Made by a program: the position numbers and the translations under genes
NCBI GenBank assembly: GCA_004296805.1
Contig: SCVR01000117.1
Span: 1-34,626 of the forward strand
Reading direction: 5' to 3'
From: Dehalococcoidia bacterium
GTDB lineage: Bacteria > Chloroflexota > Dehalococcoidia > UBA2979
DNA: 34,626 nt
The notes under the pieces: generated by a model
What the model was told of the DNA's origin: nothing
Database searches by the model: none
Seen by the model: only the letters and a program-made list of their open reading frames with translations
Part shown: positions 18,712-29,598 of the stretch, piece after piece
How the letters are laid out: each line of letters begins with the position of its first letter
Numbering within the stretch: position 1 is the stretch's first letter

Positions 18712-19392
18712 ATGCCCCGGAAGCCTGCTGCCGCCCCGCCGCTCTGGTCGCCCGCCGAGATCATCGCCATCCTCGACGAGGCGTACGGGCGGGCGCCGCA
18801 GCAAGCGTCGCGGGCGCCGCTGTTCGAGTTGGTGCTGACGCTGCTGTCGCAGCACACCTCCGACCACAACTCGGGGGAGGCGATGCACCGGCTGGTGGAG
18901 CGCTTCCCCACGTGGGATGAGGCGCTCGCGGCGCCGGTCGAGGCGATCGAGGACGCGATCCGGGCGGGCGGGCTGGCGCCGACGAAGTCGAAGCGGCTGC
19001 ACGCGCTGCTGGCCGAGGTGCACGAGCGGCGGCCGGACTGGAACCTCGACTTCCTGGAGACGATGCCACTGGAGGACGCGAAGGCGTGGCTGACGAGCAT
19101 CAATGGGGTTGGGCCGAAGACGGCGGCGTGCGTGCTGCTGTTCGCCCTCGGCCGGCCGGCGCTGCCGGTGGACACGCACGTCGAGCGCGTCGCGAAACGC
19201 CTCGGGTTGGTGCCGGCGAAGATGCCGGCGGACAAGGCGCACGCGGCCCTCGAGTCGATGCTCGCGCCTGACGAGGTGTATGCGTTCCACGTCGATCTGA
19301 TCCAGCACGGCCGCCGGACGTGCCATGCGCGCGGCCCGAAGTGCGAGGGCTGCCCACTCCTCGAGCGGTGTCCGCAGGTGGGTGTGGTCTAG
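18712..19392 (+). CDS. nth: Endonuclease III family DNA glycosylase/AP lyase
   Basis: The 226-residue product belongs to the Nth/MutY superfamily. It shows LVLTLLSQHTSDHNS (the substrate-loop region), the helix-hairpin-helix INGVGPKTAACVLL with catalytic K136, and D154 in ALPVDTHVERVAKRLG. Four cysteines, 204, 211, 214 and 220, have the C-X6-C-X2-C-X5-C spacing of the [4Fe-4S] loop. The presence of Lys rather than Ser or Tyr at the HhH end fits a bifunctional enzyme that removes oxidised pyrimidines. The stop codon shares CTAG with the stop of the converging GNAT gene. Confidence 0.93.
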   Translation: MPRKPAAAPPLWSPAEIIAILDEAYGRAPQQASRAPLFELVLTLLSQHTSDHNSGEAMHRLVERFPTWDEALAAPVEAIEDAIRAGGLAPTKSKRLHALLAEVHERRPDWNLDFLETMPLEDAKAWLTSINGVGPKTAACVLLFALGRPALPVDTHVERVAKRLGLVPAKMPADKAHAALESMLAPDEVYAFHVDLIQHGRRTCHARGPKCEGCPLLERCPQVGVV

Positions 19393-19910
19393 GGGACGTC
19401 CGGGCGGTCGAGCATCAGTTGCATCTCGACGGCGCTCTGCCACTCTCCGAACTTGCGCCCGGTCTCGATCTCCTCGCCGATCACCGTGTAGCCGAACGAC
19501 CGATGCAGTTCCACGCTGCCGACGTTCGAGGACGTGATCCACGCCACGATCGTGCGCAGGCCTAGGGCGCGCCCGGCATCGATCGCGGCTCCGAGCAGCA
19601 GACGGCCGATACCCATCCGCTGGTATGGCGTGTCGACCATGATCGTGTTCTCGCGGGTGTACTGATAGCCACGCCGGCCTCGGTAGGTGGAGAGGTAGGA
19701 GAAGCCAATCACGCGTCCGCCCGAGGTGGCGACGAACACCGGAGACTTGTCGTCGTGCTCCTGGAACCACTCGATGCGCCGCTCGGCGGGCCACTCGTCG
19801 AGTTCCCAGGTGGCGACCCCCTCGCGCACCTCGCGGTTGTAGATCGCGTTAATCGCGTCGAGGTCGCCCTCGGTGGCGCGGCGGATCACGAGGTCGGCGG
19901 GTGGTGGCAT
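19389..19910 (-). CDS. GNAT family N-acetyltransferase (phosphinothricin-acetyltransferase-like), copy 1
   Basis: The 173-residue product is a GNAT acetyltransferase: LVIRRATEGDLDAINAIYNREV at the N-terminus, VFVATSGGRVIGFSYLS in the middle, and the acetyl-CoA motif VDTPYQRMGIGRLLLGAAID. The ELHRSFGYTVIGEEIETGRKFGEW end resembles the Pat/YncA subgroup, which acetylates small amines such as phosphinothricin or methionine sulfone; the true substrate is unknown. It is a close paralogue of the next upstream gene. TAGGTT lies 6 bases before the ATG, suggesting a leaderless message. Confidence 0.9.
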   Translation of the reverse strand: MPPPADLVIRRATEGDLDAINAIYNREVREGVATWELDEWPAERRIEWFQEHDDKSPVFVATSGGRVIGFSYLSTYRGRRGYQYTRENTIMVDTPYQRMGIGRLLLGAAIDAGRALGLRTIVAWITSSNVGSVELHRSFGYTVIGEEIETGRKFGEWQSAVEMQLMLDRPDVP

Positions 19911-19957: not shown

Positions 19958-20467
19958 CTATCCGAGGAGGATGCCCATCTGCACGAGCGTGCGCCACGCT
20001 TCGAACTTCCGGCCGGCCTCGGGGAGCCGGCTCATCACCGCGAAGCCCAGTCCTGCGTGGAGCGCGATGCTCGCGGCGTTCTCGGAGTCGATGCCCGCGA
20101 GGACGAGATGCGCGCCGGTGCGCCGCGCTTCCTCGAGTACGGCGGTGACGAGTAGCCGCCCGACGCCCCGACGCTGGTAGGCAGGATCGATGTAGACCGA
20201 GTCGGTGCGCGTCGTCCAGTACGCCGCGCGCGGGGAGTAGAACGAGAGGTGGGAGAACCCTGCGACCGTCCCATCCGGCGTGGCAGCCACAAACACGGCC
20301 TCGCCCTGACGCTGGTGGGCGTCGAACCAGACGCGACGGGCCTCCGCGGTCCACGGGACGGAGTCCCAGGTGGCGACTCCCTTGAGGATTTCGCGGTTGA
20401 AGATGGCATCGATCGCCGGGAGGTCGGCGACTGTGGCGGGGCGGACCACGAAGTCGGCGGGCGGCAT
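19958..20467 (-). CDS. GNAT family N-acetyltransferase, copy 2
   Basis: The product is 169 residues from ATG 20467. It parallels copy 1 along its whole length: FVVRPATVADLPAIDAIFNREI, then GVATWDSVPW, VFVAATPDGTVAGFSHLS, the acetyl-CoA loop IDPAYQRRGVGRLLV, and LHAGLGFAVMSRLPEAGRKF. The two genes are clearly an old tandem duplication. ATG 20467 matches the start of copy 1 (MPPADFVVR versus MPPPADLVIR); the track start at 20572 would run into the divergent arg leader. The substrate is unknown. Confidence 0.9.
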   Translation of the reverse strand: MPPADFVVRPATVADLPAIDAIFNREILKGVATWDSVPWTAEARRVWFDAHQRQGEAVFVAATPDGTVAGFSHLSFYSPRAAYWTTRTDSVYIDPAYQRRGVGRLLVTAVLEEARRTGAHLVLAGIDSENAASIALHAGLGFAVMSRLPEAGRKFEAWRTLVQMGILLG

Positions 20468-20476
20468 GGCGGAAGT

Positions 20477-20504
20477 GTGACACAGGGGGTCAGGCCCGTA
20501 TACT
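20477..20504 (+). promoter_or_regulatory. Promoter of the argJ unit
   Basis: GTGACA (20477-20482, five of six to TTGACA) and TATACT (20499-20504, five of six to TATAAT) are separated by 16 bases. Transcription would begin near 20511, giving a leader of about 170 bases before argJ. Confidence 0.6.
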
Positions 20505-20545
20505 CGCGACCTGACGAGACCCGTGCCTCGAAGGAGGATGGGGAG

Positions 20546-20626
20546 ATGACCATCACGCGCGCTCACTGCCACACCGCCGCTGTGCGTGTGCGCCGCGCGC
20601 GTACGGGCGTCCGCCGCCTCGGCTAG
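20546..20626 (+). CDS. Candidate arginine-rich leader peptide upstream of argJ
   Basis: A 26-codon ORF starts at ATG 20546, 8 bases after a strong GGAGG, and stops 55 bases before argJ. Seven codons are arginine, five of them in the block VRVRRARTGVRR (CGT, CGC, CGC, CGT, then CGC-CGC). It lies downstream of a good promoter and upstream of arginine biosynthesis genes, the classic position for a leader peptide that senses its amino acid by ribosome stalling or charged-tRNA supply. The following 55 bases are GC-rich and include a small stem over the stop codon (CGGC-TAGC-GCCG), but I see no T-run, so a simple intrinsic terminator is not evident. GC-rich DNA makes Arg codons common, so chance is possible. 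Confidence 0.45.
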   Translation: MTITRAHCHTAAVRVRRARTGVRRLG

Positions 20627-20681
20627 CGCCGCGCGTCGGGCACCCCGTCACTCAGCCTCACCCCTACCTCGGAGTCTCACC

Positions 20682-21923
20682 ATGCCACACCCCACGCCAG
20701 AACCCGCGGGCCTCGTCTGGATCGAAGGCGGCCACGTCACCACGCCGACCGGATTCGTGGCGGGTGGCGCCTACGCAGGCATCAAGACCTATGGCGATGA
20801 CCCACGCCTCGACATCGGCATCCTCGGGGGCGAGGGACCGCTGACGGTCGCCGGCATCTTCACGAAGAACGCCGTCACCGGGATCTCAGTGACGTGGGAC
20901 AAGGCGATCCTCGCGGAGCGCCGTGTCGTGCGCGGCCTCGTCTGCAACTCCGGCAACGCGAACACCGTGACCGGCGACCAGGGCGAGCGCGACTGCGCGC
21001 AGATGGCCGCGCTCGCGGCGGCGCGCCTCGGCTGCGACGCCCGCGAGGTGCTCGTCGGCTCAACGGGGGTCATCGGACGGCTGCTGCCGATGGACAAGGT
21101 CGAGCGTGGGTTGTCCGAGGTAGCCCTGACGAGCGACGGTGGACTCCGCTTCGCGCGCGCGATCATGACGACGGACACACACGAGAAGCAGTTCGCCGCC
21201 CAGATCGCCGCGGCGGGGCGCACCTACACGGTCGGCGGCTGCGCCAAGGGCGCGGGGATGATCCACCCGGACATGGCGACGATGTTCGCGTTCCTCACAA
21301 CGGACGCCCCGGCCGACCCTGCCTGGCTCGAAGCCACCCTGCGCGACATCGCTTCCCGCACGTACAACATGATCGACGTGGACATGGACACGTCCACGAG
21401 CGACACGGCGCTGATCCTCGCGTCCGGCCTCGCGGGCGGCGAGCCGCTGACGGCCGCGCACCCGGCGGCTGCCGCTGTCGCGGCAGCCCTGGAGGCCATC
21501 GCAGGCCGCCTCGCGCGCGGCGTCGCCCGCGACGCGGAGGGCGCCACGTGCCTGATCGAGGCCGTCGTGGAGGGTGCGGCGAGCGTCGAGGACGCGCGCC
21601 TCGTGGCCCGCACCATCACCTCGTCGCCGCTGATCAAGACGATGGTCACGGGACGCGACCCGAACTGGGGACGCGTGATGATGGCGGCCGGCCGCTCCGG
21701 CGCACGGTTCGAGGCCGCGCGCACCTCAGTGTGGATCGGCGACAACGAGGTGCTGCACGTTGGGCAGCCGACATCGGCGGACCTGGGGGCGGTGTCCCGC
21801 GCGATGGCCGGCGACGACGTGCAAATCCGCATTCACCTGGGCGCGGGCAACGCGGTGGCGACGGCCTGGGGCTGCAACCTGACCGCCGAGTACGTGAGCA
21901 TCAACGCGGACTACACGACTTAG
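20682..21923 (+). CDS. argJ: Bifunctional glutamate N-acetyltransferase / ornithine acetyltransferase
   Basis: The 413-residue product moves the acetyl group from N-acetylornithine to glutamate, recycling it in arginine synthesis. The self-cleavage site is visible in KGAGMIHPDMATMFAFLTT, where Thr of MATM becomes the nucleophile of the beta subunit. Other family motifs are VRGLVCNSGNANTVTG, STGVIGRLLPMDKV, DMDTSTSDTALILASG and TGRDPNWGRVMMAAGRSG. The start at ATG 20682 (GGAG 7 bases upstream) is preferred over the track start 20586, which overlaps the leader peptide. argB follows after 30 bp. Confidence 0.97.
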   Translation: MPHPTPEPAGLVWIEGGHVTTPTGFVAGGAYAGIKTYGDDPRLDIGILGGEGPLTVAGIFTKNAVTGISVTWDKAILAERRVVRGLVCNSGNANTVTGDQGERDCAQMAALAAARLGCDAREVLVGSTGVIGRLLPMDKVERGLSEVALTSDGGLRFARAIMTTDTHEKQFAAQIAAAGRTYTVGGCAKGAGMIHPDMATMFAFLTTDAPADPAWLEATLRDIASRTYNMIDVDMDTSTSDTALILASGLAGGEPLTAAHPAAAAVAAALEAIAGRLARGVARDAEGATCLIEAVVEGAASVEDARLVARTITSSPLIKTMVTGRDPNWGRVMMAAGRSGARFEAARTSVWIGDNEVLHVGQPTSADLGAVSRAMAGDDVQIRIHLGAGNAVATAWGCNLTAEYVSINADYTT

Positions 21924-21953: not shown

Positions 21954-22718
21954 ATGGCACGCACCACCGTCGTGAAGATCGGGGGGTCAACCCTCGGTTC
22001 TGAGGACACCACGTTGCAGGACATCGTTGCGATGCACCGCGCGGGCGACCGTCCTGTCGTGGTGCATGGCGGCGGCGCGATGATTACCGACTGGCTGAAG
22101 CGCCTCGACATTCCGTCCCAGTTCGTCGACGGCCTGCGTTCGACCAACGCTGAGGCGATCAATGTCGTCGTGGGCGTGCTGCGCGGGGTCGTGAACACAC
22201 AATTGGTCGGAGAGATCGTTGCGCTGGGCGGGCGGGCGGTCGGCCTCTGCGGCGTGGACGGAGCGCTCGTACAGGCCGAGCGGTACGACGAGCGCCTCGG
22301 CTTCGTCGGGCGCGTCACGGGCGTGAACGCCGAAGTGCTGGTGGGGCTGCTCGACAGCGGGGTCATCCCCGTGATCGCGCCAATCGGCCTCGAAGCGCCG
22401 TCACAGCCGCTCAACATCAACGCTGACACCGTGGCAGGCGAGGTCGCGCGAGCGCTGAAGGCTGACAGCCTGGTGTTCCTGACAGACGTGGACGGCCTGC
22501 TGGACTCACAGGGGGCCCTCGTGCCGGAGCTTGGGCATGCGCTGGCCGCCTCGATGCGGGAAAGCGGCGTCCTGGGCGGGGGTATGATCCCGAAGGTCGA
22601 AGCCTGCTTCCGGGCAGCGGAGGCCGGTGTGGCCGCATCGATGGCGAACGGCACCGTGCCCGGCATGCTGCGCCGGGTTGCCTCCGGCGAACGAGTGGGG
22701 ACGCGCATCGTGGCATAG
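21954..22718 (+). CDS. argB: Acetylglutamate kinase
   Basis: The 254-residue product phosphorylates N-acetylglutamate. It shows the amino-acid-kinase nucleotide site TTVVKIGGSTLG, the VVVHGGGAMI loop, the substrate region LRSTNAEAINVVVGVLRG, NINADTVAGEVARAL and the ATP-side SLVFLTDVDGLL, then GGGMIPKVEAC. The protein begins directly at the first kinase strand. Arginine-inhibited kinases carry an extra N-terminal kinked helix, which is absent here, so this enzyme is probably not feedback-inhibited (inference from the family). GAGGGG precedes the ATG. Confidence 0.96.
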   Translation: MARTTVVKIGGSTLGSEDTTLQDIVAMHRAGDRPVVVHGGGAMITDWLKRLDIPSQFVDGLRSTNAEAINVVVGVLRGVVNTQLVGEIVALGGRAVGLCGVDGALVQAERYDERLGFVGRVTGVNAEVLVGLLDSGVIPVIAPIGLEAPSQPLNINADTVAGEVARALKADSLVFLTDVDGLLDSQGALVPELGHALAASMRESGVLGGGMIPKVEACFRAAEAGVAASMANGTVPGMLRRVASGERVGTRIVA

Positions 22719-22764: not shown

Positions 22765-25635
22765 ATGGGATTCCACGACGACGGTGAAGAACGCGGCAAC
22801 CTCGGCCCGCCGCCGGAGATCTTCCGGTTCGGTGGTATGGCCCGCGACCGTCGCCCACCTGCGGGCGCCTTGAAGTGGGTGGGCCTCGCCGCTGCTGCCG
22901 TCGTGATCTTCCTGACGCTGGACACGCTGAAGTCGATCTACGTGGACGTGCTGTGGTTCACGTCCGTGGGGTTCGGCTCCGTCTACAAGACGGTGGTGAT
23001 GTGGCAGGTCGTGCTGTTCGTCGCGGGCACCTTCATCACGGTCGCCGCGGTCGGCGGCAACATCTGGCTGGCGCGCCGCCTCGCGCCACAGGGCGTGGAT
23101 GAGTCGTTCCTGGAAGAAGTCGACCCTGAGGCGATCCGTCGCCTGGGCACCATCCTGCTGATCGCTGGCACGATCTTCCTCGGGCTGATCCTCGGCGCGG
23201 CCGCCTCGGGCGCGTGGCAGACGCTCGCGGCATGGCGAAACGCCGTCGAGTTCGGGCGAACCGATCCCCAGTTCAACCGCGACATTTCTTTCTACCTTTT
23301 CACCCTGCCGGCGTGGCACGCGATCCGCGCCTGGGTCCTCGGTGTGGTCACCGTCTCCCTGCTGGGCGCGGGCGCGGTCTATGCGCTCACGATGTCGCTG
23401 CAGCGGTTCGAGTTGAACATCACGCGCGCGATGCGCATCCACCTGTCGATCCTGGTTGCAATCCTGCTGCTCCTGATCACCGTCGGCTCGTATCTCGCGA
23501 TGTTCGACCTCGTCACCCGCGGGACGGGGATCGTCTACGGCGCCATGTACACCGACGTGAACGCGCGCCTACCTGTGCGGTATCTGCTGGTCGCCCTGGG
23601 CCTGTTTGCCACCGTCGTGACGGCGATCAACCCGTTCATGTCGGAGCGTGGCTATCGGGCGCCCGGGTTCGCCCTCGGCCTCTGGGTGTTCGCGGGGATC
23701 GTCGGCGGCGTGCTGTACCCCTCCACGATCCAGCGCTTCTCGGTCGAACCGAACGAGCGCCAGAAGGAAGAGCAGTTCATCGGCCGCAACATCGAGGCGA
23801 CGCGCTTTGCGTTCGGCCTCGACAAGGTGGAGGAGTCCCAGTACCCCGCGAACCAGGCCGTGACGCCGAAGGAGTTCGAGGAGAACCCGGAGACGATCCG
23901 GAACATCCGGCTGCTGGACCCGATCCCGTTGCTGGACACGTTCAACCAGATCCAGGCGATCCGGCAGTTCTACACGTTCCGCGATGTGGACGTGGACCGG
24001 TACAACATCGGCGGGCGTCCCCGCCAGGTGATGGTGGCGGCGCGAGAACTCGACGTGACGCGTGCGCAGGACCGGAACTGGACGCGCGAGCGCCTGCAAC
24101 TGACTCACGGCTTCGGCGCCGTGGTGTCACCGGTGAACGAGGTCCGTGAGGAGGGGCTGCCTATCCTGCTGACCTCGGACATTCCGCCGAAGTCGGACGT
24201 GCTGCCGCTGACGCCGGACGGATCGCGCATCTACTTCGGAGAACTGACCAACCACTACGTGGTCGGGCGATCAAGTGAGCCGGAGTTCGACTACCCGCTC
24301 GGCGAGGGCAACGCGGAAACGCACTATGTCCCCGACCGGGGGATCCGGATGAACTCCATCGTGCGACGGGCGGCGCTCGCGTGGCAGTTGGGCGACCAGA
24401 ACCTGCTGATCTCAGAGCGAGTGACCGCGGACTCGCGGCTCCTGATGCGACGGAACATCACCGAGCGCGTGAGCCACGTTGCGCCGTGGCTGCACCTGGA
24501 CAGTGACCCATACGCCGTCATCCTGGACGGCAAGGTGATGTGGCTGATGTCGGCGTACACCACGACCACGAAGTTCCCCTACTCGCAGCCGCGCGAGGGA
24601 GGTGTGAACTACATCCGGAACAGCGTCACGGTCACGGTGGACGCGCAGACCGGGGACATGCGGTTCTACCTGCAGGACCCCACCGACCCGATCGCCTCGA
24701 CGTGGGCGAAGGTGTTCCCGGGTCTGCTCCACCCGATGTCCGAGCTCCCCCCGGGTCTGCGCGAGCACCTGCGCTATCCACTCGATCTCTTCAAGATGCA
24801 GTCGCAGACGTACCTGCGCTACCACATCACCGACGCGAACGTGCTGTTCATCGGCGAGGACGCGTGGAACATCCCGACCGAGCGGTTCCGTGACCAGGAG
24901 CAGCCGGTCGAGCCGTATTACGTCGTGATGTCCCTGCCGCGCGGGGATGGCAAGCCTGAAGGCAAGTCCGAGTTCGTCCTGATCATGCCGTTCACGCCGC
25001 GACAACGGCAGAACACCGTGGCGTGGCTCGCGGGGCGCTCGGACGGCGACCTCTACGGTGGCCTCCGTGGCTATCGATTCCCCACCGAGGCACTGGTCTT
25101 CGGGCCGGCGCAGATCGAGGCGCGGATCGACCAGAACCCGGGCATCTCCGCGCAACTGACGCTGTGGAACCAGTCCGGGTCGCAGGTGATCCGCGGCAAC
25201 CTGCTGATGATCCCCGTAGGGTCCTCGTTCCTCTTCGTCGAGCCGATCTACCTCCAGGCTGAGAACTCGAGGCTTCCGGAACTCGTGCGCGTTGTGGTCG
25301 CCAACGGCAACAACGTGGCGATGGAGAAGACGTTGACCGAGGCGATCGAGGTGTTGCTCGGCAAGCGCCAGTCCTCGCTGCCGGGGGCCACGCAGCAGCC
25401 CGGACAGACTCCGGGCAACCAGGCCGGCCAGCCGGGGGCGCAGCCCACGCCTGCTCCGACGCCTGCCGCGGGTGCGACGCCGAGGGCGATCCCGACGGGT
25501 GACCTCCAGAAGTTGCTGGAGGAGGCACAGAGGAGCCAGCAGACGACGCAGGCCGAGCTGGACCGTCTGAAGCAGATCCTGGACGCGATCCAGCGACAAC
25601 TCGGGCCCACGCCGACACCAACGCCATCCCGGTAG
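22765..25635 (+). CDS. UPF0182 family large membrane protein
   Basis: The product (957 residues from ATG 22765) has about seven membrane helices in the first ~310 residues, including LKWVGLAAAAVVIFLTLDTL and MRIHLSILVAILLLLITVGSYL, then a large extracytoplasmic region of about 550 residues with the family's typical blocks (NIRLLDPIPLLDTFNQIQAIRQF, TYLRYHITDANVLFIGEDAW). A Pro/Ala/Thr/Gln linker and a C-terminal coiled coil (LQKLLEEAQRSQQTTQAELD) end the protein. Function of UPF0182 is unknown. AGGAG 4 bases before the ATG fixes the start; the track start 22627 lies inside argB. It is embedded between argB and argD with 41-46 bp gaps, so co-transcription is likely. Confidence 0.92.
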   Translation: MGFHDDGEERGNLGPPPEIFRFGGMARDRRPPAGALKWVGLAAAAVVIFLTLDTLKSIYVDVLWFTSVGFGSVYKTVVMWQVVLFVAGTFITVAAVGGNIWLARRLAPQGVDESFLEEVDPEAIRRLGTILLIAGTIFLGLILGAAASGAWQTLAAWRNAVEFGRTDPQFNRDISFYLFTLPAWHAIRAWVLGVVTVSLLGAGAVYALTMSLQRFELNITRAMRIHLSILVAILLLLITVGSYLAMFDLVTRGTGIVYGAMYTDVNARLPVRYLLVALGLFATVVTAINPFMSERGYRAPGFALGLWVFAGIVGGVLYPSTIQRFSVEPNERQKEEQFIGRNIEATRFAFGLDKVEESQYPANQAVTPKEFEENPETIRNIRLLDPIPLLDTFNQIQAIRQFYTFRDVDVDRYNIGGRPRQVMVAARELDVTRAQDRNWTRERLQLTHGFGAVVSPVNEVREEGLPILLTSDIPPKSDVLPLTPDGSRIYFGELTNHYVVGRSSEPEFDYPLGEGNAETHYVPDRGIRMNSIVRRAALAWQLGDQNLLISERVTADSRLLMRRNITERVSHVAPWLHLDSDPYAVILDGKVMWLMSAYTTTTKFPYSQPREGGVNYIRNSVTVTVDAQTGDMRFYLQDPTDPIASTWAKVFPGLLHPMSELPPGLREHLRYPLDLFKMQSQTYLRYHITDANVLFIGEDAWNIPTERFRDQEQPVEPYYVVMSLPRGDGKPEGKSEFVLIMPFTPRQRQNTVAWLAGRSDGDLYGGLRGYRFPTEALVFGPAQIEARIDQNPGISAQLTLWNQSGSQVIRGNLLMIPVGSSFLFVEPIYLQAENSRLPELVRVVVANGNNVAMEKTLTEAIEVLLGKRQSSLPGATQQPGQTPGNQAGQPGAQPTPAPTPAAGATPRAIPTGDLQKLLEEAQRSQQTTQAELDRLKQILDAIQRQLGPTPTPTPSR

Positions 25636-25676: not shown

Positions 25677-26882
25677 GTGAGCGATATCCCAACACGGGAC
25701 GCAGCGGTGCACATGACGAACTACCGGCGCATGCCGGTCACGATCGTGCGTGGCGAAGGCAGCCGTGTCTGGGACACCGAGGGCCGCGAGTACCTGGACT
25801 TCATCCAGGGCGTCGCCGTGAATTCGCTCGGACATGCGAACCCAGGCCTCGCAGACGTGATCGCGAAGCAGGCGCACACGCTGATGGCCACCTCGAACCT
25901 CTTCTACACCGAGGAGCGCACGCGGCTGGCTGAACTCCTCGTCGCGAACTCGGTCCTTGACCGCGTCTTCTTCTGCAACTCCGGTGCAGAGGCCGTGGAG
26001 GGCGCGATCAAGATCGCGCGCAAGTGGGGGATCCAGAACCGGGAGGGGGCGTACGAGATTATCTCGACGCACAACTCGTTCCATGGACGCACCCTCGCGG
26101 CCGTCGCCGCGACCGGGACACCGCACTACCGCGAGCCGTTCGGCCCGCCGATGCCGGGCTTCGTCTTCGTCGACTACAACGACGTCGAGCAGATCAAGGC
26201 CGCGACCACACCTCGGACATGCGCGGTGTTGCTCGAGCCAATCCAGGGTGAGGGCGGCGTGAACGTCCCGGATGCCGACTACCTGAAGCGCGTGCGGGCG
26301 TGGTGCGACGAACAAGGGATCCTGCTGATCCTGGACGAGGTGCAGACCGGCGTCGGGCGCACGGGGACGATGTGGGCATACGAGCAGGCTGGCATCGAGC
26401 CGGACATCATGACGTCCGCGAAGGGGCTCGGCGGGGGTATGCCGATCGGTGCGGTGCTGGCGAAGGAGGCCTACGCAGTCTTCGAACCCGGCGACCACGG
26501 GTCCACCTTCGGCGGAAACTCGCTGGCGGTCGCAGCGGGTGCGTACGTCATCACCCAGATGATCGACGGGGGTGTGATCGCGAACGCCATGGCACGCGGG
26601 GATCAACTGGCGCGGCGGTTGGCGGCCCTTGAGGATGTGTCGCCGCTGGTCGGCGGACAGCGCGGCGCGGGCCTCCTGCGGGGCCTGGAACTCACGGCCG
26701 ACGTCGCGCCTGAGGTGGTCGCGCGCTCGCTCGAACGCGGGCTGATCCTCAACCCGGTCCGGCCCAACGTGGTGCGGTTCATGCCGCCCCTGACCGTGAC
26801 GGCGGAGGAGATCGACCGCGCGGTCGAGATCGTCGGCGGGGTCGTCAGAGACCTCGCCGCCGAGCGAGCAGCGGCCCGATAG
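25677..26882 (+). CDS. argD: Acetylornithine aminotransferase
   Basis: The 401-residue product is a class III PLP aminotransferase that converts N-acetylglutamate semialdehyde to N-acetylornithine. It shows GEGSRVWDTEGREYLDFIQG, FFCNSGAEAVEGAIKIARKW, STHNSFHGRTLAAVAATG, LILDEVQTGVGRTGTMWAYE and the PLP lysine in MTSAKGLGGGMPIGAVLA, followed by STFGGNSLAVAA. The fold class cannot by itself exclude related omega-aminotransferases, but the arg context decides. The start is a GTG with GAGGAG upstream; an ATG at codon 12 is a later alternative. Confidence 0.94.
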   Translation: MSDIPTRDAAVHMTNYRRMPVTIVRGEGSRVWDTEGREYLDFIQGVAVNSLGHANPGLADVIAKQAHTLMATSNLFYTEERTRLAELLVANSVLDRVFFCNSGAEAVEGAIKIARKWGIQNREGAYEIISTHNSFHGRTLAAVAATGTPHYREPFGPPMPGFVFVDYNDVEQIKAATTPRTCAVLLEPIQGEGGVNVPDADYLKRVRAWCDEQGILLILDEVQTGVGRTGTMWAYEQAGIEPDIMTSAKGLGGGMPIGAVLAKEAYAVFEPGDHGSTFGGNSLAVAAGAYVITQMIDGGVIANAMARGDQLARRLAALEDVSPLVGGQRGAGLLRGLELTADVAPEVVARSLERGLILNPVRPNVVRFMPPLTVTAEEIDRAVEIVGGVVRDLAAERAAAR

Positions 26883-26949: not shown

Positions 26950-29598
26950 ATGAGCGGGCTGTTCAACCGGCTCGCGGTGCAAACCGCGCTTTTCGCCATC
27001 GCCGTCCTCGTGCTCGTCGGGATCGTGCTGGCCATCCAGGTGGGCGCCGCCGTTGGCAAGAACGAGGAAGACCACTACAACGATCACATCCGGCGCGGCC
27101 GCGACCAGCTCCAGGAGCAGGTCACGACGTTCGCCAACCTCACGGAGACCGGCGCCGTGGTGCTGTCCGGGAGTCCTGAGCTGCGCGAGGCGGTCGCGAA
27201 GCGTGATGTCGCCGCAGCACTGAAGGCCGCCACCAACTTCTCGGAGATCGTCGGTACCCCGTTCCAGGGCACGCCTGGCATGCAGTTGTACGACGCCAGG
27301 GGCACTCTGCTGGTCCGGGCGCACACTCCGCTGAACAACCGTCAGCAGATCACACCGACCGAGGTCGCCCGCGTCCTCCGTGACGGCCAGTCGATCGGCG
27401 GCGTCCGTCACGATGAGTTGCTCGGCCTCGTGCTCTCGGGAGTGGCAGCGATCCGCAACTCGGATGGGGCCATCGTCGGGGCGATCGAGGTGATGTCCAC
27501 CATCGACTCCTCGTTCGCCATGGACCGGGCGAAGGCGTTGGGTATGAACGTCGCCATTTTCGACAAGGGCGGCGTGGTCGCCTCGTCCGAGGGCGACCTC
27601 CGGCTGGGCCCGGAGGAGATCACGAGAGCCGTCGCGGCCCAACAGAAGGATGGGACGGCGACCGTGATGGCAGGAGCCGAGAAGTACCTCTCAGCGTTCG
27701 TACCGCTGGCCTCTCCGAGCGGTGCCGAACTCGGGTACCTTTACGTCGGCATCGATGAGGGCGAGATCGACCAGGCGATCGCCGCGACCCGCCTCCGCAT
27801 GCTGCGGAGCGTGGCGCTGGCAACCGCGGCGGCAGCGGTACTGGGATGGGGCGCATCCCTGTTGGCGATCCGGCCGATCCAGTCGTTGGCCCAAGCGGCC
27901 CGACGGATCCAGGCCAACGATCTCGAAAGCGCGGTACCAATCGCGGGCCCAGCGGAGATCCGAGGACTCGGAGAAGCACTCGACGACATGCGCCTCGCGA
28001 TCCGGGAGGGCCGTGAGGCCATGCTCCTGGCCAACCGTGACCTGGCCGCACAGTTCGACGTGTCCACCGTCACCCTGACGGAGGTCACGCACGACCTGAC
28101 GGTGATCCAAGCGGTGCTCTCGCACCTCTCGGGCGAACGCTCCGGTGGCCTCGCCGGGGCAGCCGAGGAACTCGCCGATCTCGCGTGGCTGGACGGCGTG
28201 TTCGTGGCGGTTGCGACCGAAGCTGGTGACCTATCGGTCGCAGCGGTGGCGAACCTGGCTCCGGGGACGGCAGACGTCACGTTGAACCTCGCCCGGCAAC
28301 GCGTGGACGGCGACCTCTCCCGCGAATGGGAGGTCACGGATACCTCCGCCAACGGGGATACGGCTCGCCTCGCCGCATGGGGCGTCGGCGGCGTCTTCAT
28401 GACGCCGATGCTTACCCCCGACGGTGTGGCGGGCGTCCTCGCTATCACGTCCGCCGGACCGCTGAGCCTCACGGAGCGCCGACGTGACCTGGTCCGATCG
28501 GTGACGCGCGAGGTTGCGGCCACGCTTGAGCGCACGGAACTGCAGGACGAGGTCGATGAGAACCGTCGGATCGCGGAGGCCGTCCTCCGGGAGATGTCAG
28601 ACGGCGTGCTGGTGGTCGACCAGGAAGGGATCTGCCGGATCGCTAACCCGGCCGCGATCCGCCTGCTCGGCCGGGGACGCGCGGACATGATCGGGCAGCC
28701 ATGGGGCGCCTTCATCCCCCTCGCGGCCGAGACCCTTGAAGCGTTGCGGCTTCGGGCGTACCACCCAACCGGGCTTCCGGCTGCTCCCGCAATCCTCGCG
28801 TTGCGCGACCGACAGCTGGCCGTGACCTCCGGCCCGTTCCCTGACCCGGACCCCTCGCGCTCCGGCATGCTCGTCCTGCTCCGAGACCTCTCCGCAGAGG
28901 CCGAGGCGGAGCGCGTCAAGCAGGACTTCGTCTCCATGGTGGGGCACGAACTCCGCACACCCCTCACCTTGATCCGCACGACGATCGACCTCCTGTTCGA
29001 AGGCGACGCAGGAGCGCTGAACACCACGCAGAGCCGAATCGTCGAAGTGTTGCGTAACAACGCCGACCGCTTGATGTCGCTGATCACCGACCTTCTCGAC
29101 ATGTCGGCCCTTGACTCCGGGCGCATGCAGATCAACCCCGCGAATGTGGAGATCGATGCGATCGTCCGGGGGGTGATGGAAGATGTGCAGGGGACGGCAA
29201 CCGCGAAGCAACACTCGCTCCGAGCGGAGGTCCCCACCTCGCTCACCGTGTGGGCAGATGCAGTGCGCGCCCAGCAGATCCTCCAGAACCTCGTGGGGAA
29301 CGCGATCAAGTACACACCCGTCGGCGGCGTGATCGAGGTGCGGGTGCGCGAGGTGCCGGGCGGGTTCGTCGAGGTCTCCGTACGCGACGATGGCATCGGG
29401 ATCCCACCCGAGGAGCAGGCCCACCTGTTCGAGAAGTTCTACCGGACGACGGCGGGCCGCCGGACGACCGGTGGCACCGGCCTCGGACTGGCAATCGCGA
29501 AGTCGTTCGTCGAACTGCACGGGGGCCAGATCTGGTGCGAATCGGACGGGCGTTCGGGATCGCGCTTCGTCTTCACCCTACCGCGACGCCGGGTATGA
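26950..29598 (+). CDS. Membrane sensor histidine kinase: Cache-HAMP-GAF-PAS-HisKA-HATPase
   Basis: The 882-residue product has a membrane helix at about 10-32, an extracytoplasmic double-Cache-like sensor to about 278 (MQLYDARGTLLVRAHTPLNN, IVGAIEVMSTIDSSF), a second membrane helix at about 284-307, a HAMP segment to about 355, a GAF-like region at about 375-525, and a PAS domain at about 540-650 (DGVLVVDQEGICRIANPAAI). The kinase core has H666 in VSMVGHELRTPLTLI, the N box LQNLVGNAIKYTP, G1 VRDDGIGIPPEE and G2 GGTGLGLAIAKSF. No response regulator gene is adjacent, so the partner is elsewhere. It sits between argD and argG. Cache domains often bind amino acids or small acids, but no ligand can be assigned here. 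Confidence 0.93.
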   Translation: MSGLFNRLAVQTALFAIAVLVLVGIVLAIQVGAAVGKNEEDHYNDHIRRGRDQLQEQVTTFANLTETGAVVLSGSPELREAVAKRDVAAALKAATNFSEIVGTPFQGTPGMQLYDARGTLLVRAHTPLNNRQQITPTEVARVLRDGQSIGGVRHDELLGLVLSGVAAIRNSDGAIVGAIEVMSTIDSSFAMDRAKALGMNVAIFDKGGVVASSEGDLRLGPEEITRAVAAQQKDGTATVMAGAEKYLSAFVPLASPSGAELGYLYVGIDEGEIDQAIAATRLRMLRSVALATAAAAVLGWGASLLAIRPIQSLAQAARRIQANDLESAVPIAGPAEIRGLGEALDDMRLAIREGREAMLLANRDLAAQFDVSTVTLTEVTHDLTVIQAVLSHLSGERSGGLAGAAEELADLAWLDGVFVAVATEAGDLSVAAVANLAPGTADVTLNLARQRVDGDLSREWEVTDTSANGDTARLAAWGVGGVFMTPMLTPDGVAGVLAITSAGPLSLTERRRDLVRSVTREVAATLERTELQDEVDENRRIAEAVLREMSDGVLVVDQEGICRIANPAAIRLLGRGRADMIGQPWGAFIPLAAETLEALRLRAYHPTGLPAAPAILALRDRQLAVTSGPFPDPDPSRSGMLVLLRDLSAEAEAERVKQDFVSMVGHELRTPLTLIRTTIDLLFEGDAGALNTTQSRIVEVLRNNADRLMSLITDLLDMSALDSGRMQINPANVEIDAIVRGVMEDVQGTATAKQHSLRAEVPTSLTVWADAVRAQQILQNLVGNAIKYTPVGGVIEVRVREVPGGFVEVSVRDDGIGIPPEEQAHLFEKFYRTTAGRRTTGGTGLGLAIAKSFVELHGGQIWCESDGRSGSRFVFTLPRRRV

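Follow-up and report, generated by a model that had tools for sequence, protein, structure and literature searches.

Conserved tandem arginine codons in a leader peptide gene ahead of argJ in related genera of Dehalococcoidia

A short open reading frame situated between a promoter and argJ, a gene of arginine biosynthesis, is almost certainly a real and conserved leader peptide gene in five related genera of Dehalococcoidia, uncultured bacteria of the Chloroflexota. It probably senses the supply of arginine, and we lean towards a mechanism in which ribosomes stalling for Arg-tRNA would control argJ at the level of translation. Control by leader peptides is well established for Trp, His, Leu, Ile/Val, Thr and Phe, and arginine synthesis is usually under ArgR, or under T-boxes in some Firmicutes. 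As a kind, leader peptides have long been known; the version with arginine codons ahead of an arginine biosynthetic gene appears to be new, as none turned up in our literature search, most subscription papers lying outside its scope.

The window, a stretch of 34,626 nucleotides analysed as a whole, belongs to a draft genome assembled into 439 contigs, whose nearest named relatives are Dehalococcoidia. The features relevant to this analysis are the following.

20477–20504, + strand: promoter, read from the sequence, with the −35 element GTGACA at 20477–20482, a 16 nt spacer and the −10 element TATACT at 20499–20504
20533–20537, + strand: Shine-Dalgarno (SD) sequence GGAGG of the leader ORF, in a 5′ UTR that is almost invariant within the genus
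20546–20626, + strand: leader peptide ORF MTITRAHCHTAAVRVRRARTGVRRLG, from ATG at 20546 to the stop TAG at 20624–20626
20585–20617, + strand: conserved Arg cluster, codons 14–24 (R14, R16, R17, R19, R23, R24)
20627–20681, + strand: 55-nt spacer between stop and argJ, C-rich and G-poor from about 20640, without terminator and without T-run
20671–20674, + strand: argJ SD GGAG, with CGGAGTCT conserved within the genus
20682–21920, + strand: argJ, bifunctional glutamate N-acetyltransferase / ornithine acetyltransferase, the presumed controlled gene (NCBIfam, well above cut-off)
21954–22718, + strand: argB, acetylglutamate kinase, downstream in the presumed operon (NCBIfam, well above cut-off)
25677–26882, + strand: argD (acetylornithine transaminase), an argD-like ORF further downstream
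29652 (position given): argG

The promoter GTGACA-N16-TATACT is the sole promoter-like match in 1.3 kb, with a shuffle expectation of about 0.0. A TATACT-like −10 box is present 5′ of argJ in most of the family, with or without an upstream ORF (uORF). The leader ORF comprises 26 sense codons, seven of which encode Arg, every one of them CGC or CGT, and the final clustered Arg codon ends 64 nt 5′ of the argJ ATG. The promoter, the strong GGAGG, the 26-codon ORF, its stop and the 55 nt to argJ, which the original prediction had listed, are all present in the sequence. Two details of that description need adjustment. The total of seven Arg codons is correct, but they do not divide into a run of five and a terminal pair: VRVRRARTGVRR holds six, the terminal pair among them, and codon 5 supplies the seventh. 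Similarly, the stretch before argJ has the length described but is rather C-rich and G-poor than GC-rich. A longer, GTG-started frame (20249–20626) encloses the leader ORF, and it gave zero protein-family matches. What can be read at this locus is a short translatable ORF between a promoter and a biosynthetic gene, which is the layout of an amino-acid leader peptide.

Taken alone, the window leader could be a product of chance. Of dinucleotide shuffles of the window uORF, 25% reached its Arg count and 31% its clustering, and the caution, voiced at the outset, that GC-rich frames hold Arg codons by chance is justified for a single sequence. The other leaders behave alike when taken singly: compared with dinucleotide shuffles, none is significant in Arg content, save for the clustering in G014 and G015. 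Arg enrichment of single leaders was dropped as an argument for this reason, and only comparison between genomes decides. A chance ORF in GC-rich DNA, for which the shuffle P of about 0.3 for the window leader by itself would speak, is hardly credible once relatives are considered, since the SD, the frame, the TAG and the geometry recur in 14/14 leaders and no indels occur within the genus.

The search for ArgJ covered the 44 genomes of the family, equivalent to the entire order in the set, and 393 genomes of the class; argJ upstream regions were compared across the family and 40 further Dehalococcoidia. An SD-led uORF lies between a TATACT-like box and argJ in 14/14 readable leaders, which belong to the genera g1 (that of the window), g8, g13, g16 and g17. 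All 14 end in TAG and carry tandem Arg codons around codons 16–26, and 13 of them open with ATG AC (Met-Thr). The peptides are otherwise highly divergent between genera, as exemplified by MTTQTRQDAPRLEPLRLRRRRATVAHSTPAQ, MTTWSALLSPSAAGAAWMGTCVRRRRVAITGSHRTSS and MTLVRATRTRTTDADALRRRARRRRPSAAPHPRLSDA, and the leaders of G017 and g13 are weak. Such a uORF was not found in 19 other tabulated family genomes, where the −10 box is nearer to argJ. Other Dehalococcoidia have an occasional short ORF containing Arg (e.g. MRRRRACCGSCA in G114), without common geometry. In the ArgJ tree the uORF-bearing genera group together (support 85/87), and only the AT-rich, long-branched g10 is nested among them. 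This topology suggests one origin of the uORF, with a possible loss in g10 or a misplaced branch of it. In argC, argG and argF of the same 16 genomes no comparable uORF was found, just scattered low-quality Arg-rich ORFs, which supports an Arg-codon uORF specific to argJ. One assembly, G021, contains two slightly differing argJ start regions (L004 and L111, on contigs C201 and C5), probably owing to a strain mixture (6% contamination).

Within g1, identity is 87% in the uORF, which shows no indels, against 63% in the spacer and 75% in the upstream DNA. Substitutions in this genus alter other residues, and all four species retain the seven Arg positions found in the window leader. Summed over pairs, substitutions at the three codon positions number 21, 15 and 27; this only slight third-position excess indicates weak constraint on the peptide itself. 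Across the uORFs, amino acids besides Arg are barely conserved. Codons for the end product that remain clustered and conserved as the remainder drifts are the pattern by which a leader peptide is recognized, as far as sequence comparison can tell. An alignment of relatives had been named beforehand as the check that could refute the idea, and it leaves the idea standing: the frame and the Arg codons are conserved in 14/14 leaders and the flanks diverge.

The choice of Arg codons is also distinctive. In the 14 uORFs CGT makes up 33% and CGC 53% of Arg codons, compared with 11% and 50% in the window genes. Together they account for 86% in the uORFs versus 61% in the window genes, and the CGG share is 6% versus 26%. 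CGT and CGC are normally decoded by one tRNA, and the bias points to a single tRNA-Arg isoacceptor.

The position of the cluster is steadier than that of the stop codon. In 13/14 leaders the last clustered Arg is at codon 21–26 and ends 46–71 nt before the argJ ATG. This distance is 46–52 nt in most of g8, g16, g17 and g13, 54–64 nt in g1 and 71 nt in G016. In G032 the automatic ‘last Arg’ falls at 28 nt, but the end of the tandem CGT CGT pair is 52 nt from argJ. The distance from the last clustered Arg codon to the uORF stop ranges from 6 to 57 nt, and since the stop shifts while the cluster remains in position, the Arg codons keep their place relative to the argJ start and not to the stop. 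From uORF stop to argJ start there are 10–16 nt in g8, g13, g16 and g17, whereas the g1 spacer varies between 45 and 55 nt. In g8 and g16 the stop adjoins the argJ SD (TAGCGGAG); in g13 and g17 argJ is without a clear SD. An extreme C-over-G skew occupies 20640–20711 and the same place in L003–L010, L014, L110 and L111, only in genomes with the uORF. It may be either rut-like or selected for low structure.

In the mechanism we propose, the leader peptide gene would sense how much charged arginine tRNA is available and relay this to argJ, with which the arginine cluster begins. Transcription would start near 20511, and ribosomes would load on the strong leader SD. With ample Arg-tRNA, a ribosome would pass the Arg cluster and reach the TAG; in the genera with 10–16 nt between stop and start, the ribosome terminating there would cover the argJ start region, and argJ translation would stay low. 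When charged tRNA-Arg is scarce, the ribosome would pause at the tandem CGY codons with its front edge about 35–50 nt before the argJ AUG. The argJ start would then be left free for a new ribosome, and argJ would presumably go up. In g1 the stop is 45–55 nt upstream, too far for a terminating ribosome to cover the argJ SD, so this genus must use another coupling step. The lack of a clear argJ SD in g13 and g17 would suit translational coupling, in which stalling would lower argJ.

The alternative RNA structures that had been envisaged did not emerge. When a masked ribosome was placed at every codon of the leader, stalling at the Arg codons gave no consistent lowering of the argJ-start opening energy, in a procedure which models structure and does not test occlusion. 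A structural switch by stalling was rejected on these grounds. A ribosome masked at the uORF stop overlaps the argJ start and for that reason raises its accessibility, and adding queued or initiating ribosomes to the folding model changed little. No compensatory base pairs were seen in the g1 leaders, which provide only four sequences, and alifold of g8, g16 and g13 gave no common structure.

Several other readings of the same leaders have to be weighed against stalling-controlled translation. Attenuation of the classical trp/his type, with an intrinsic terminator, shares a general resemblance with the argJ arrangement and appears to operate in the same genomes at ilvB, where a peptide similar to LLVLVLT is accompanied, in several genomes, by a hairpin with a T-run. 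However, the absence of a visible T-run terminator, already remarked upon in the original prediction, holds throughout: the 14 argJ leaders are all devoid of terminators and contain no T-run exceeding three, and in four genera a terminator would not fit between the stop and the argJ start. The sequence of the 14 leaders rules this form out, and we give it almost no weight. Attenuation dependent on Rho is the main rival, although it too is unlikely. It would treat the C-rich, G-poor stretch at the argJ start as a Rho loading site, the position of the leader ribosome deciding on termination upstream of argJ or in its first part. These genomes encode Rho, the argJ leaders lack an intrinsic terminator, and in speF orf34 two Arg codons, Rho and structure at the ribosome binding site act together (PMC6386406). 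Over −50..+30 of argJ, every leader of g1, g8 and g16 has a C minus G of 0.24–0.30; of all 80-nt windows in the 34.6 kb, just 0.16% reach 0.25, and the average is −0.08 in 19 relatives without the uORF. The value is far lower, however, in the leaders of g17 (0.17) and g13 (0.04–0.12), while argG and nth in the window reach 0.19–0.21 and most trpE starts 0.12–0.34. Furthermore, the stall site precedes the C-rich stretch, so that simple exposure would act in the wrong direction, and C-rich, G-poor starts could also be selected for low structure.

Plain translational coupling, in which uORF ribosomes would re-initiate at argJ and raise its translation and the Arg codons would be a by-product of GC-rich composition, is in our judgement quite improbable. 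The 10–16 nt from stop to start in four genera is near the peak of 10–11 nt known for re-initiation leaders (PMC4833913), a ribosome placed at the uORF stop lowers the opening energy of the argJ start, and no leader exceeds its shuffles in Arg count. Nevertheless, between genera the stop shifts by tens of nucleotides while the Arg cluster keeps its distance from both argJ and the start of the uORF, and this account also has to accommodate the CGY bias as well as the retention of the cluster in 14/14 leaders while most other residues change. It also conflicts with the sister leaders of trpE and ilvB, which bear the product amino acids of their own operons. Arrest of the nascent peptide by free arginine sensed in the ribosome tunnel, in the manner of the fungal arginine attenuator peptide, could draw on the Arg-rich nascent chain of 20–25 residues present at the pause site. 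Arrest peptides require specific residues, however, and, Arg runs aside, the peptides are not conserved from genus to genus, which makes this reading very improbable.

The regulatory context argues for leader-based control. ArgR (PF01316) was found in 0/44 family genomes, most of them incomplete assemblies and 15 at least 90% complete; the control search was positive in 9/14 named genomes. Around argJ, no riboswitch or other Rfam RNA was matched, T-box (UGGNACCGCG) included. The argJ leader and, as positive controls, those of trpE and ilvB each carry codons of their own pathway's product. At trpE, a T-box and then a Trp-rich uORF (WSWWW, SWWWG, GRWWR, VWRWRR, WWCSRSW) precede the gene in L219, L221, L222, L225 and L228 and in other loci of L220–L231. 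The T-box motif TGGCACCGCG is present in 13/13 trpE loci, and in four scanned loci the T-box has E values of 1e-7 to 1e-9, under the Rfam gathering score. Trp codons occupy positions 16–26 of the uORF, whose stop overlaps trpE or ends 1–34 nt upstream. The last Trp codon is mostly 46–73 nt before the trpE ATG, G033 being uncertain owing to start choice. Genus by genus, the distances of the regulatory codons in trpE and argJ leaders resemble each other: 46 versus 46–49 nt in g16, 53 versus 51 in g8, 49 versus 46 in g17 and 61–73 versus 54–64 in g1. By analogy, the trpE leader may constitute a tandem tRNA-Trp sensor like B. subtilis rtpA, but one acting directly on trpE.

Ahead of ilvB (L235–L246), a conserved leader peptide ending in LLVLVLT or similar (DNA CTCGTACTCGTACTTACCTAG) is found directly 3′ of a TTGACG promoter. 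This leader (MANLTSPIADPAQAATLGGLLLVLVLT and relatives) is rich in branched-chain amino acids, and several genomes have a terminator-like hairpin some 100 nt upstream of ilvB. It gave no Rfam match at the gathering score and looks like an ordinary branched-chain attenuator. A His leader before hisG was considered and rejected, as hisG directly follows an upstream coding frame. With Trp-rich leaders before trpE and leaders rich in branched-chain residues before ilvB, codon-sensing leaders appear habitual in this lineage. Of the arginine attenuator originally proposed, the arginine-sensing leader is supported by its conservation, its specificity to argJ, the failure to find ArgR and the trpE and ilvB leaders; the terminator form of it has to be given up.

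Known systems offer partial parallels. In the rtpLP leader studied by Chen and Yanofsky (2003, 2004), finishing the leader reportedly blocks the next start and stalling frees it. The rtpA (anti-TRAP) leader of B. subtilis combines tRNA-dependent ribosome stalling with an upstream T-box (PMC11255114). The argJ leaders share with rtpLP the regulatory codons, the lack of a terminator ahead of the next gene and, in four genera, a stop near its start, and the trpE leaders of these genomes likewise pair a T-box with a Trp-codon uORF. In contrast, the argJ leader concerns arginine instead of tryptophan, precedes a biosynthetic gene and not an anti-regulator, is longer and is without T-box. A stop adjoining the next SD or start, as in rtpLP, characterizes g8, g13, g16 and g17 but not g1. 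The stop beside the argJ SD, the kept Arg position and the trpE parallel would together fit the logic of B. subtilis rtpA.

In Salmonella, the short tandem-Arg uORF orf34 of speF (SpeFL) senses arginine via Rho and structure at the ribosome binding site, without intrinsic terminator (PMC6386406). The argJ leaders share the short uORF with tandem Arg codons and the lack of an intrinsic terminator; in contrast, orf34 controls ornithine decarboxylase, and its leader measures about 500 nt against about 150 nt for argJ. The SpeFL core HIRRT..HIMM (DUF2618; HIRR) is absent from the argJ uORF peptides. The trp, his, leu, ilv and thr attenuators of proteobacteria and actinobacteria likewise place a leader rich in the end product ahead of the operon, but they require a terminator/antiterminator, which the argJ leaders do not have. 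The carA leader peptide of P. aeruginosa, as cited in PMC4997734, is associated with possible pyrimidine attenuation, arginine acting at transcription; it too precedes a gene of the arginine/pyrimidine pathway, the gene being carA.

Tentatively, and with slightly less than even confidence, we suggest that one ruler may serve argJ and trpE. Regulatory codons would be placed near codon 20–25 and about 46–65 nt before the start codon, in a leader that stands alone at argJ and behind a T-box at trpE. This would represent a recurrent terminator-free form of attenuation and, at argJ, the first arginine-codon leader for arginine biosynthesis. If true, a lineage without recognisable ArgR still controls its arginine pathway, and Arg joins the list of leader-peptide amino acids. 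Together with trpE, it would suggest a terminator-free leader architecture overlooked by annotation pipelines, which miss such leaders because the ORFs are too short.

The surroundings of the leader show some further features. ArgB starts (21954–21990) almost directly at its KIGG motif (MARTTVVKIGGS), without N-terminal extension. Such an extension is typical of arginine-inhibited acetylglutamate kinases, and its absence fits the proposed arginine insensitivity of this enzyme. A large gene, by appearance a UPF0182-like membrane protein, occupies 22807–25635 between argB and argD, and a gene resembling a sensor histidine kinase occupies 26950–29598 between argD and argG, within the arginine cluster. 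Divergent from the argJ leader, on the minus strand, 19961–20468 encodes a GNAT acetyltransferase resembling ArsN1, below the curated cut-off, and a second GNAT gene lies at 19389–19910.
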